A DNA stretch of 64,000 nucleotides from Candidatus Eisenbacteria bacterium (GTDB taxonomy: Bacteria; Orphanbacterota; Orphanbacteria; Orphanbacterales; Orphanbacteraceae), in contig JAFGGD010000008.1 in assembly GCA_016930695.1 (NCBI GenBank), positions 1-64,000 on the forward strand, written 5' to 3'. The position numbers and the translations under genes were made by a program. Positions within the stretch are counted from its first letter, which is position 1. Each line of letters begins with the position of its first letter. A model generated the notes under the pieces. The model was not told the origin of the DNA and ran no database searches. It saw only the letters and a program-made list of their open reading frames with translations. Of this stretch, positions 6,284-10,466 are shown one piece after another.

Positions 6284-6958
6284 TCACTCGTTGGCGAGGA
6301 TGGCCGCGGCTGTCCCCTCGGCGCCGGCGTGGCGCTCCAGCATCGCGGCGAAACGGCCCAGGATCTCCCGCAGCTCCTCCCGATCCGCGGTGGTTCGATC
6401 GGCGTAGACCGCGGCGATCACGCGGGTCGTCCCGGGGACCACCTTGGCGTCCATCGAGTCCTTCACCGGATTGCCGAGGGCCGGCCCTCCGGCGCGGGCG
6501 ACGCAGACGAGACCGGTCAGGTCGATCTCCTGGCCCGCCGGGTTGAAGACATAGGACTCCTTCGCGCGGCCGAGACGGATCTCCAGACCGGAGGCCTCGC
6601 CGAGGGAGCGGTCGGCGTCGAGCACCGAGACGGGGAGCCCGGTGAAGAGGGAGATGTGATTGCCGATGTCGACCACGTTGGCGTGGAAGGGGAAGTCGTC
6701 GGCCGCGGCGCGCCCGGCCAGATATTCGCTGGCCGGTTTGTTTCGGCCGGCGGGACGGAAGCCGCCCCGGCGGAGCATGTTCCGGATCGCCCTTTTTCGC
6801 TCCGGCGGGGGGAACTCCTCCCCGCGGCGTCGCCGAACGAGCTCCTCCATCTCGCGGCGCAGGTCATCGCTTGATTCGCCTACGCGAATCCCTTCCGCCT
6901 CCACCAAGCCGATCAGAAGATCCGGGTCGTCGATCCGTAGTTCCACGAAAGTGCGCAT
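6284..6958 (-). CDS. B3/B4 (tRNA-synthetase beta-type) domain protein
   Basis: A 224-residue protein resembling stand-alone versions of the B3/B4 domain of phenylalanyl-tRNA synthetase beta (COG3382-type). Recognisable parts are an N-terminal helical segment, the central VVDIGNHISLFTGLPVSVLDAD (its first part is the conserved core) and the ending KDSMDAKVVPGTTRVIAAVYA, which is typical of the group. Such solo domains may bind or edit aminoacyl-tRNA or amino acids; their role is unsettled. The chosen ATG follows GGAGGAAC. It lies 92 bases downstream of the JAMM-E1 fusion on the same strand, possibly one transcript with it. The metK promoter sits at its 3' end. Confidence 0.8.
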   Translation of the reverse strand: MRTFVELRIDDPDLLIGLVEAEGIRVGESSDDLRREMEELVRRRRGEEFPPPERKRAIRNMLRRGGFRPAGRNKPASEYLAGRAAADDFPFHANVVDIGNHISLFTGLPVSVLDADRSLGEASGLEIRLGRAKESYVFNPAGQEIDLTGLVCVARAGGPALGNPVKDSMDAKVVPGTTRVIAAVYADRTTADREELREILGRFAAMLERHAGAEGTAAAILANE

Positions 6959-7049
6959 GGCCGTTCCTCCGTCGCGGTTTCCGCCGTAGCCGCGGTCCGC
7001 GCCGATTCTATCGGGCGGCGGCGCCCCGGGCAAGCGGTGGACGCGATCG

Positions 7050-8813
7050 TCAGTAGCGGGGGAGTCCCGGGTCCGTCTCCTCGATCCACGCGAGTATCCC
7101 TCCCTCCAGGTTGACGATCCGCGGGAAACCGAGGCGGAGGAGGAGCATCGCCGCGCGGGCGGCCCGTATCCCCACGCGGCAGATACAGACGATCTCTGCG
7201 TCGCGGTCGAGTTCGGCGGTCCGCTCCGGCAACTCCTCGATGGGGAGGAGGCGGGAGCCTTCGATGCGGACGATGCGCGCCTCGGCGGGCCGCCGCACGT
7301 CGAGGAGGAGGATCGGATCGCCCCGGTCGAGCCGTCCGCGAAGTATTTGAGGCGTCATGGTTTCGATCGCGGGTAGCGATTCGCCGTTTTGCAGGGGCGG
7401 AAGGCCGGCGCGGGCGAGCATGGGGGCGAAAGCCCGGCGGTCCGCCCGTTCGAGGCAGGCCGCGTCCTCCTCGCCGGGGAAGCAGCCGGCGTCCCGGTAG
7501 AGGCTCCGGTCGAGGGCGCGGATCGATGGGCGCTCGCCGCAGAGCGGGCAGCCCGGGTCCCTCGGAACCTCGATGATCCGGAAGCGGGGACGGAGCAGAT
7601 CGACGAGAAGGAGGCGGCCGGCGAGCGGATCCCCCGCGCCGAGCAACGTTTTGAGCGCTTCCGAAGCGAGGAGGGCGCCGACCACGCCGGGGAGCGGGGC
7701 GAAGACGCCCGCCATCGGCGGAGGCGCCGGAACGCCGGGAGGGGGTGGTTCCGGGTAGAGGCAACGGTAGCAGGGTCCTCCCCGGCTCGGGAAGAGGGAA
7801 ACCTGGCCGCCGAAGCGATCCACGCTTCCGTGCGCCATCGGAAGGCCGAGGATTCCGCAGGCGTCGGCGAGAAGGTAACGACTCGGGAGGTTGTCGGTTC
7901 CGTCCACGACGAGATCGTACCCGCCGAGGATGTCGAGAGCGTTTTCCGGAAGGATCGGCCTCTCGTGTTCGATCACCTCCGTGTTCGGGTTGAGCGCCCG
8001 GAGCCTCTCCGCCGCGGAGGCCGTCTTCGGGCGGTCGATCCCCGGCGTGTCGTGGAGGATCTGGCGTTGCAGGTTGGTGAGGTCGACGGTGTCCGGATCG
8101 GCGACGCCGAGCCGGCCGACCCCCGCGGCGGCGAGGTAGAGGAGCGCCGGCGAACCGAGTCCGCCCGCGCCGACCACGAGAACCCGCGAGCGGCGGAGAC
8201 GCGCCTGTCCCTCCGGGCCGATCTCGGGCAGGACCAGATGGCGCGCGTAGCGGGTTTTTTCTTCGCCGGTAAAGCGTTCTTCTTCCCGTTCCGGGGCGGC
8301 GCCGGCGATCGCGCCGAGAAACGCGGAAGGGGACGGGTCGAAGCGTGCCGCGCATGGAGGGGGCGCGTCGGCGTCCGTCGACTCGATCGGTTCCTCGTCG
8401 AAGCCTCCTTCGGGTCGCGGGAGCCAGGACCGGATCGAGCGGTCCGCGCCGATGATCAGTGTGGAGCGGCCGGGCCAGGCGCGGCGGCCGTCCGCGGCGG
8501 AGGGAAGGGCCGGGCTTTCCGGGTGGGAGTGATAGAAGCCGAGGATCGCGAGTCCGGCGCGGTCGGCGCGGAGGCGCTCTCTCCAGAACGCTTCCGCGGG
8601 AATCAGAAAGCGGCGCGCGGCGCGCGGCCCCTCCTCCCGGTTTCTCTCCGGCCGGATCGCGGCGACCGTGCGTCCGGACGGCCCCGTCCATCCGACCAGA
8701 AAACCGCAGCATTCCCTCGGATCGCTCCGCTCCGCTTCGCGGATGAGGGCGTCCCGGACGCGCTTCGGGAGAAGAAGGGGGCGCGCCCCTTCTTTCGGCG
8801 CGGAGGAACGCAT
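7050..8813 (-). CDS. JAMM metalloprotease - ThiF/MoeB-type E1 - rhodanese fusion protein
   Basis: A 587-residue cytoplasmic fusion. Residues about 14-135 are a JAMM/MPN domain with a perfect zinc motif HSHPESPALPSAAD (HxHx7Sx2D) and an upstream Glu in RECCGF. Residues about 185-430 are a ThiF/MoeB/Uba4-like adenylating domain with GAGGLGS, NLQRQ, DGTDN and two zinc CxxC pairs (CYRC and CPLC). Residues about 480-587 are a rhodanese domain with active loop CRVGIR. E1s of this type adenylate the C-terminus of ubiquitin-like sulfur carriers, and JAMM domains trim or release them. The Cys that MoeB and MOCS3 carry before AGV (TCVEAGV or NCADGGV) is replaced by Pro here (APPPMAGV). No carrier gene lies nearby. 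The start abuts the upstream lyase stop with no gap. Confidence 0.88.
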   Translation of the reverse strand: MRSSAPKEGARPLLLPKRVRDALIREAERSDPRECCGFLVGWTGPSGRTVAAIRPERNREEGPRAARRFLIPAEAFWRERLRADRAGLAILGFYHSHPESPALPSAADGRRAWPGRSTLIIGADRSIRSWLPRPEGGFDEEPIESTDADAPPPCAARFDPSPSAFLGAIAGAAPEREEERFTGEEKTRYARHLVLPEIGPEGQARLRRSRVLVVGAGGLGSPALLYLAAAGVGRLGVADPDTVDLTNLQRQILHDTPGIDRPKTASAAERLRALNPNTEVIEHERPILPENALDILGGYDLVVDGTDNLPSRYLLADACGILGLPMAHGSVDRFGGQVSLFPSRGGPCYRCLYPEPPPPGVPAPPPMAGVFAPLPGVVGALLASEALKTLLGAGDPLAGRLLLVDLLRPRFRIIEVPRDPGCPLCGERPSIRALDRSLYRDAGCFPGEEDAACLERADRRAFAPMLARAGLPPLQNGESLPAIETMTPQILRGRLDRGDPILLLDVRRPAEARIVRIEGSRLLPIEELPERTAELDRDAEIVCICRVGIRAARAAMLLLRLGFPRIVNLEGGILAWIEETDPGLPRY

Positions 8814-10253
8814 CTAGATCAATCCGCCTTCGGTGAGGCGCCGGAGGTCGCCGAGCGCACGTTCCACTTCTTTCTCCGTGACCGGCCTTCCCCCTTCCCT
8901 GCGGGCGAGCGAGCCGGCGCGGGCCGCCTCCAGCGCCGCTTCCCGTACCGTCACGCCGCGGGCGGCGGCCTCCTTCACCAGCTCGGCGCCTCGGGAGTAT
9001 CCGATCAGCGGATTCAGCGCGGTGACGACGATCGCGTTTCGGTCGAGCCATTGTGCGGCGCGCTCCCGGTCCGCCTCGATACCCCGAACGCACCGGTCGG
9101 TGAAGGCGCGCACCGCGCCGATCGTCACCTGCATCATTTCGAAGAGGTCGTGCGCAATCACCGGCATCATCACGTTCAGCTCGAGCTGGCCCGACTGAGA
9201 GGCGAGGGCGACGGCGCAATCCAGCCCTACGACATGAAACATCGCCATGTCGAGCATTTCCGCGAGGACCGGGTTCACCTTACCGGGCATGATGCTCGAT
9301 CCGGGTTGCACCGCCGGAAGCCGGATCTCGGCGAGGCCGGTGGAAGGACCCGACGCGAGGAGCCGCAAATCGTTGGCGATCCGGATGAGCGTGAGCGCCA
9401 GGGTGCGGAGGGAGGCGGAGAAGTGGACGCCGTCCGCCATGGACTGCATCGACTCGAAGAGATCGTCGGAGCCCTCGAGATCCAGGCCGGTCCATTCGGC
9501 GAGGCGGGCGACCATCCTCTCGTGGTACTCGGCGTGGGCGTTCAAACCGGACCCCGCGGCGGTCCCTCCGATACCGATTCGCCGGAGAGATTCGGCGGCG
9601 GCGACGATCCGCGCGCCGTCCCGCTCCACCGCGCGCGCATAGGCGCCGAACTCCTGCCCCAGGCGGACCGGCACCGCGTCCTGCAGGTGGGTTCTCCCCG
9701 ACTTCACCACGTCGTCGAACTCCTCCGCTTTCTCGCGGAGCGCCGCGGCGAGGTCGTTCCCCGCGCCGACCAGCTCCTCCAGCCGCAGCAGACAGCCGAT
9801 GCGGATCGCCGCGGGGACCGTGTCGTTCGTCGATTGGGACATGTTGACGTGATCGTTCGGGTGGACCCGGTACTCGCCGAGGCCGGCGCCGAGGAGAAGG
9901 GCCGCCCGATTGGCGATCACCTCGTTCACATTCATGTTGTGGCTCGTGCCGGCGCCGGCTTGGAAGGGATCGACCACGAACTGATCGTCCCAGCGGCCTT
10001 CCATGACTTCCCGGGCGGCATGAGCGATCGCCTCGGCGCGCTCGCCGTCCAGGAGACCCAGGTCCCGATTGACCTCCGCCGCCGCCCCCTTGATCGCCGC
10101 CATGGACCGAATGAACGCAGGCCATGGACGGAGACCCGAGACGGGGAAGTTGCGGACCGCCCGGGCGGTCTGCGCTCCATAGAGCGCCCCGGCGGGCACC
10201 TCCACTTCGCCGAGAGAGTCCCTTTCGATGCGGAACTCCTTCTTTTCTTCCAT
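8814..10253 (-). CDS. Class II fumarase/aspartase family lyase, aspartate ammonia-lyase-like
   Basis: A 479-residue homotetrameric-type lyase that reversibly makes fumarate, from aspartate (aspartase) or from malate (fumarase). The signature GSSIMPGKVNP is present at about 335. AGAGTSHNMNVNEVIANRA and HPNDHVNMSQSTND resemble aspartase (STND, HVNMSQ) more than FumC (SSND, DVNKSQ), whereas PGKVNP is shared with fumarases. I therefore favour aspartase but cannot settle it by eye. The ATG was chosen after GGGAGGCGG; an upstream 66-codon extension is unlikely. It is the first gene of a probable operon with the JAMM-E1 fusion (stop and start adjacent). In this organism it could feed fumarate to the TCA cycle beside sdhCAB. 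Confidence 0.85.
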   Translation of the reverse strand: MEEKKEFRIERDSLGEVEVPAGALYGAQTARAVRNFPVSGLRPWPAFIRSMAAIKGAAAEVNRDLGLLDGERAEAIAHAAREVMEGRWDDQFVVDPFQAGAGTSHNMNVNEVIANRAALLLGAGLGEYRVHPNDHVNMSQSTNDTVPAAIRIGCLLRLEELVGAGNDLAAALREKAEEFDDVVKSGRTHLQDAVPVRLGQEFGAYARAVERDGARIVAAAESLRRIGIGGTAAGSGLNAHAEYHERMVARLAEWTGLDLEGSDDLFESMQSMADGVHFSASLRTLALTLIRIANDLRLLASGPSTGLAEIRLPAVQPGSSIMPGKVNPVLAEMLDMAMFHVVGLDCAVALASQSGQLELNVMMPVIAHDLFEMMQVTIGAVRAFTDRCVRGIEADRERAAQWLDRNAIVVTALNPLIGYSRGAELVKEAAARGVTVREAALEAARAGSLARREGGRPVTEKEVERALGDLRRLTEGGLI

Positions 10254-10358
10254 ATAGTGCCGCCTCCCCTTCGGAAAGGGACCAAGAGGATACATCCCGC
10301 CCAGCATACACGGAAAGGGGGCGGGAAAACATGATTTGTGGGGAGGCGGAAAGACGTT

Positions 10359-10388
10359 GTCATACATAGAGATAGAAAAACCAGTCAA
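10359..10388 (-). promoter_or_regulatory. Predicted promoter of the lyase operon
   Basis: On the minus strand TTGACT (10388-10383), 18 bases, then TATGAC (10364-10359). This leaves a leader of about 100 bases to the start codon. It is divergent from the TetR promoter. Confidence 0.5.
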
Positions 10389-10420
10389 GCGGGGCTCCGG
10401 GTTGAACGATAAATCATATT

Positions 10421-10436
10421 GTGAATGCAAATTCAT
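10421..10436. promoter_or_regulatory. Putative TetR operator, copy 1
   Basis: GTGAATGCAAATTCAT has arms TGAAT and ATTCA around four bases. It lies directly upstream of the -35 box. A second copy with the same arms and spacing is 46 bases away (10467-10482). Confidence 0.6.
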
Positions 10437-10437
10437 A

Positions 10438-10466
10438 TTGACAAACAGCATTCCACGGAGTAGTCT
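10438..10466 (+). promoter_or_regulatory. Predicted promoter of the tetR-efflux operon
   Basis: TTGACA (10438-10443), 17 bases, TAGTCT (10461-10466). It lies exactly between the two palindromic operator copies, so a bound repressor would block polymerase. Confidence 0.65.

Follow-up and report, generated by a model that had tools for sequence, protein, structure and literature searches.

Organisation of the fusion gene

The window, that is the whole stretch of 64,000 nucleotides analysed here, carries on its reverse strand a gene whose single open reading frame joins a JAMM protease domain, an E1-like adenylating domain and a rhodanese domain (Table 1). The original prediction of three activities on one polypeptide agrees with the domain search, in which the Pfam models Prok-JAB, ThiF and Rhodanese match in that order from the N- to the C-terminus, all well above cutoff. 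The motifs that had been read by eye are likewise all present according to Pfam and motif reading: the JAMM zinc motif, the nucleotide site, both zinc CxxC pairs and the rhodanese loop CRVGIR. The JAMM signature (Glu and HxHPx(n)SxxD) is complete, with E34, H95-S-H97, S105 and D108, and the E1 domain retains its catalytic residues R191, R250, K263 and D307 together with an intact GAGGLGS motif and both zinc pairs. The protein misses the NCBIfam MoeZ/MoeB equivalog cutoffs (scores of 372.7 vs 449, 337 vs 647 and 254.2 vs 266). A structure model was built from a 43-row alignment and is of low confidence over a good deal of the linker and in a portion of the JAMM domain; its E1 domain superposes on MoeB 1jw9 (TM 0.95 over the target, rmsd 1.2) and also matches ThiF.

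Table 1. Features of the fusion gene and its immediate neighbours (positions in the window)
Feature	Position	Strand	Evidence
Whole gene, JAMM-E1-rhodanese fusion, 587 aa	7050..8813	(-)	single ATG-to-stop ORF; continuous high GC3
JAMM/MPN+ (Prok-JAB) domain, residues 16-130	8424..8768	(-)	Pfam 3.5e-20, above cutoff
JAMM glutamate E34	8712..8714	(-)	motif reading
JAMM zinc motif HSHPESPALPSAAD, residues 95-108	8490..8531	(-)	direct reading
Linker, residues 131-180	8274..8423	(-)	low pLDDT over much of linker
E1 adenylating domain (ThiF/MoeB type), residues 189-423	7545..8249	(-)	Pfam ThiF 1.8e-70; MoeB 1jw9 fold match
Nucleotide-binding motif GAGGLGS, residues 215-221	8151..8171	(-)	motif reading
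Zinc pair 1, CYRC, residues 348-351	7761..7772	(-)	motif reading
Crossover loop PPGVPAPPPMAGVFA, residues 358-372, rewritten	7698..7742	(-)	departures from near-invariant columns
Pro365 replacing E1 cysteine	7719..7721	(-)	Cys in 83/83 aligned relatives, 80/80 loci
Zinc pair 2, CPLC, residues 422-425	7539..7550	(-)	motif reading
Rhodanese domain, residues 487-578	7080..7355	(-)	Pfam 5.5e-16
Rhodanese active-site loop CRVGIR, residues 545-550	7164..7181	(-)	motif reading
Aspartase/fumarase-family (lyase) gene	8814..10451	(-)	
B3/4-domain protein gene	6284..7033	(-)	

Most relatives encode the protease and the E1-rhodanese as two separate genes and the assembly of the window genome is in 60 contigs, so that an artefact of assembly or a frameshift joining neighbouring genes had to be considered. 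However, the frame is continuous and third-position GC stays high across the linker, which gives no sign of a frameshift, and the same fusion occurs independently in an acidobacterium (L180, see below); we regard an artefact as extremely improbable. Also within the linker, the segment IAGAAPE was examined as a possible fossil of a lost carrier tail (IAGGAPD in relatives) and rejected as too weak, the shuffle p being 0.05-0.06 in the comparison with G002 and G001 and 0.36 in that with G004, three genomes of the same phylum.

Loss of the crossover cysteine

The absence of the conserved E1 cysteine, also claimed originally, is upheld by the alignment: PGLVPSCAEGGVLG aligns without gaps to PGVPAPPPMAGVFA of close relatives and places Pro365 at a position that is Cys in every one of the 83 aligned relatives and also in each of the 80 loci that were read separately. 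A cysteine elsewhere in the crossover loop was looked for, and PEPPPPGVPAPPPMAGVFAPLPG contains none between the zinc pairs. Uba4 reportedly forms a thioester on the equivalent residue ahead of thiocarboxylation (PMC7527816), and the Uba4 C225S mutant is left with only about 25% of tRNA thiolation (PMC5349211), whereas the equivalent cysteine of MOCS3 is reported not to be essential in vitro (PMC5349211). The partial activity left in C225S likewise speaks for sulfuration in the absence of this cysteine. Because of the MOCS3 report, a route in which the rhodanese Cys hands its sulfur directly to the adenylated carrier, by analogy with MOCS3, is plausible for the window protein, and the loss of the cysteine weakens the case for Uba4-like thioester chemistry and not that for membership of the E1 fold family.

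Carriers and E1 enzymes of the window genome

The window genome (G000) is 96% complete, and the fusion protein is both its sole ThiF-family (PF00899) match and its only strong Prok-JAB match. Two carriers were found. The first, ThiS, is encoded at 104037 of the same contig, has the C-terminus MGGG and is adjoined by ORFs reading as ThiG and ThiH; the second is a MoaD fused to MoaE in one frame on a different contig (L001, 1066-1848 (-)), with the junction VSGG/APED. A CysO-like carrier was not found in this genome, and the fusion gene lies near neither carrier gene. The original remark that no carrier is encoded nearby is thus correct for the window but does not extend to the genome. As ThiS already ends in GG and MoaD-MoaE has an internal GG, only MoaD-MoaE needs proteolysis. 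The compact machine that had been proposed, for processing, adenylating and sulfurating a carrier of the MoaD/ThiS type, is still the best-supported reading in view of the MoaD-MoaE fusion, ThiS and the lone E1 and strong JAMM, with the amendment that the protease is needed by just one of the two carriers.

Fast evolution of the E1 domain

The window protein departs from the consensus at 25 of 140 near-invariant E1-rhodanese columns (next row 14, median 1), eight of these departures falling within residues 362-372, and it has the longest branch of the tree (2.33 vs a median of 0.16). The tree joins it with the E1-rhodanese of G005, from the same phylum, both being long branches and the placement of the window protein not being firm. 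In relative-rate counts against G005, the E1 domain has 51 vs 17 unique changes (chi-square 17 with G002 as outgroup; 12.5 with G003 and 13.6 with G004), whereas the rhodanese has 14 vs 12 and MetK zero excess; the acceleration is therefore specific to the E1 domain. As read from these sequences, the E1 domain evolves unusually fast, and the loss of the cysteine is one of its numerous changes.

An E1 domain on so long a branch could be impaired, and the window protein might have kept the cutting of MoaD-MoaE and the movement of sulfur while no longer activating carriers efficiently. The branch length, the number of departures from near-invariant columns and the excess of unique changes in the E1 but not in the rhodanese all suit such a degeneration. 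Yet the residues R191, R250, K263 and D307, the GAGGLGS motif and both zinc pairs are retained, the structure model fits MoeB, and the search found no second E1 in a genome that still has ThiS and MoaD; we consider degeneration improbable.

The E1 domain of the window protein is also poor in lysine, with three residues against a median of 11 in the aligned set and 10 and 9 in the GC-matched relatives G003 and G005. The Uba4 cysteine protects against self-conjugation on nearby lysines, and Uba4 lacking it self-conjugates under oxidation (PMC7527816); the low lysine content would fit an enzyme living without this protection, which we offer as a suggestion only.

JAMM proteases and carriers extended past Gly-Gly

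We compared 50 further genomes, those of relatives and mostly MAGs, counting as extended any carrier that is a MoaD-MoaE fusion, a carrier-E1 fusion or bears a short tail. A carrier extended past GG is present in 36 of 38 JAMM-positive genomes but in only 1 of 12 JAMM-negative ones (Fisher p 2e-8, shared ancestry ignored), and in the latter nearly every carrier stops exactly at GG. JAMM is present in 19/19 of the genomes with a MoaD-MoaE fusion (p 0.0015, shared ancestry ignored). Within the phylum of the window, MoaD-MoaE lies in one frame in all five JAMM genomes; G006, in which MoaD is separate and ends in GG, and G005, where MoaD is absent and MoaE is matched only below threshold, both lack a strong JAMM. 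No extended carrier was found in JAMM-positive G037 and G040. G032 and G033 had been candidates for MoaD-MoaE fusions without JAMM and were rejected, since the genes are separate and a stop follows GG, as is likewise the case in G019. An exception to the rule proposed below is G049 (Gemmataceae; L152, L158), where MoaD ends in GGQSA and no strong JAMM was detected; in the same genome, ThiS shares one open frame with an ORF reading as ThiG.

The JAMM domain of the fusion protein is thus probably a maturation protease, to judge by this co-occurrence. DRJAMM cleaves MoaD-MoaE (PMC8832034) and QbsD uncaps its own carrier (PMC6006322). For MoaX, cleavage after GG is required, the protease being unidentified at the time (PMC4326299). 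As a candidate rule, a JAMM protease of this kind would be kept when the sulfur carrier bears residues past Gly-Gly, and this points to a protease class as candidate for the MoaX processing enzyme left unidentified in PMC4326299.

A JAMM domain could also act mainly as a deconjugase, reversing the attachment of carriers to protein lysines, including those of the fusion E1 itself, in the manner of HvJAMM1, which reverses the SAMP1 conjugation inhibiting molybdopterin synthase (PMC4443979). Since Cys-less Uba4 self-conjugates under oxidation (PMC7527816), a Cys-less enzyme could need such an activity. We nonetheless think this unlikely as the main function: JAMM presence tracks carriers extended past GG, and the scarcity of lysine in the window E1 would limit self-conjugation.

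Gene order in relatives and origin of the fusion

Among 80 named loci from many phyla, none has JAMM in the same frame as E1. In relatives, JAMM is usually a separate gene upstream of E1, often followed by a CysO-like carrier, which in these loci is fused to E1 in 29 and separate in 27. The carrier-E1-rhodanese fusions (29/80, from several phyla and archaea, including L048, L050-L053, L055, L058, L060, L066, L072, L082 and L109) are in frame, with the CysO/MoaD-like carrier N-terminal and its Gly-Gly internal. Separate CysO-like carriers frequently have extra residues past Gly-Gly (L056, L061, L067, L070, L077, L104, L112), usually in a genome with JAMM.

The pairing of JAMM with a CysO-like carrier and an E1-rhodanese in many relatives, and the likeness to operons of JAB, carrier and cysteine synthase genes described by Iyer et al. 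2006 (PMC1779556), would suit a role as in the CysO/Mec route, where JAMM frees cysteine from the carrier in cysteine synthesis. As the window genome was found to contain only ThiS and MoaD and no CysO-like carrier, this role is very unlikely here.

The phylum of the window holds only seven genomes, and Acidobacteriota were surveyed instead of a phylum-wide comparison. In three genomes of the phylum (G001, G002 and G004), JAMM is a gene of its own and precedes a gene in which carrier, E1 and rhodanese are fused; in G003 the carrier is absent and JAMM is followed by E1-rhodanese, and G005 has E1-rhodanese and no strong JAMM. In the acidobacterial survey, the three-domain order, for which relatives were to be searched, recurs independently in L180 (1498-3156 (-)), a JAMM-E1-rhodanese fusion of 552 aa that keeps the cysteine (PSCAEGGVLG); this is one fusion, and thus at least one, among the matches listed for the 182 Acidobacteriota genomes in which a strong match was obtained. 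As it is independent of the window fusion, the fusion arose at least twice, while the loss of the cysteine was seen once, in the window protein. No match covering 80% of the fusion protein was found in plasmid records.

Since relatives order JAMM, carrier and E1-rhodanese as neighbours, the fusion gene probably derives from such a neighbourhood; the CysO-like carrier would have been lost, as in G003, and JAMM would then have been fused to E1.

On one side, the end of the lyase gene directly abuts the start of the fusion gene. The counterpart of this lyase gene (L184, 5443-6867) is 77% identical and is found some 6 kb away from the G005 E1-rhodanese gene, in support of the orthology of the two E1-rhodanese genes. 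The gene of the B3/4-domain protein is found just downstream of the fusion gene, and relatives of it lie within about 9 kb of JAMM genes in G002 and G004.

Proposed mechanism

We propose, as a probable reading, that the fusion protein is a sulfur-carrier maturase in a single polypeptide, severing MoaD from MoaE, adenylating MoaD as well as ThiS, and sulfurating from the rhodanese persulfide without an E1-thioester. The JAMM domain would cut MoaD-MoaE after the internal Gly-Gly and expose the MoaD tail, which the E1 domain would adenylate; it would probably also adenylate the tail of ThiS, because the genome has no other E1. The persulfide on rhodanese Cys545 would then turn the adenylate into a thiocarboxylate, without a covalent thioester to a crossover-loop cysteine of the E1. 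The small carrier protein so released, activated and charged with sulfur is probably the one used in molybdenum cofactor synthesis. More tentatively, cutting, adenylation and thiocarboxylation may be gathered on one Cys-less protease and E1-rhodanese chain in which three features, the missing cysteine, a tail-binding loop that has been rewritten and the scarcity of lysine, are linked adaptations to a sulfuration-only, non-conjugating enzyme; we hold this further step to be possible and somewhat doubtful.

The need for the E1 cysteine in E1-rhodanese sulfuration has so far been argued from Uba4 and MOCS3 mutants. A natural enzyme with Pro for Cys, being the sole E1 of its genome, makes this need directly testable.

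Comparison with known systems

With enzymes of the MoeZ/MoeBR and MOCS3/Uba4 type, the window protein shares the E1-then-rhodanese order, the zinc pairs, the nucleotide site and the CxxGxR loop, but it adds an N-terminal JAMM, has Pro for the crossover Cys and misses the nearest NCBIfam cutoffs. The operons described by Iyer et al. 2006 (PMC1779556, rows 4a-4c) bring these three activities together with a MoaD/ThiS-like carrier; in them, JAMM and E1-rhodanese are separate proteins, often encoded next to the carrier gene, whereas the window has a single fused gene with no carrier beside it. In Deinococcus, with DRJAMM and MoaD-MoaE (DR2607), and for mycobacterial MoaX, a cut after the Gly-Gly of MoaD-MoaE frees active MoaD; DRJAMM is described as the product of its own gene, while the candidate protease of the window is part of the E1 protein. 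The MoaD-MoeB-rhodanese fusions (PMC11237513; 29/80 loci, G001, G002 and G004) also extend the E1-rhodanese N-terminally by a part of the pathway, this part being the carrier in those proteins and the protease in the window protein. The acidobacterial fusion of L180, of 552 aa, has the same three domains in the same order but, with its cysteine kept, differs from the window protein and its Pro365.
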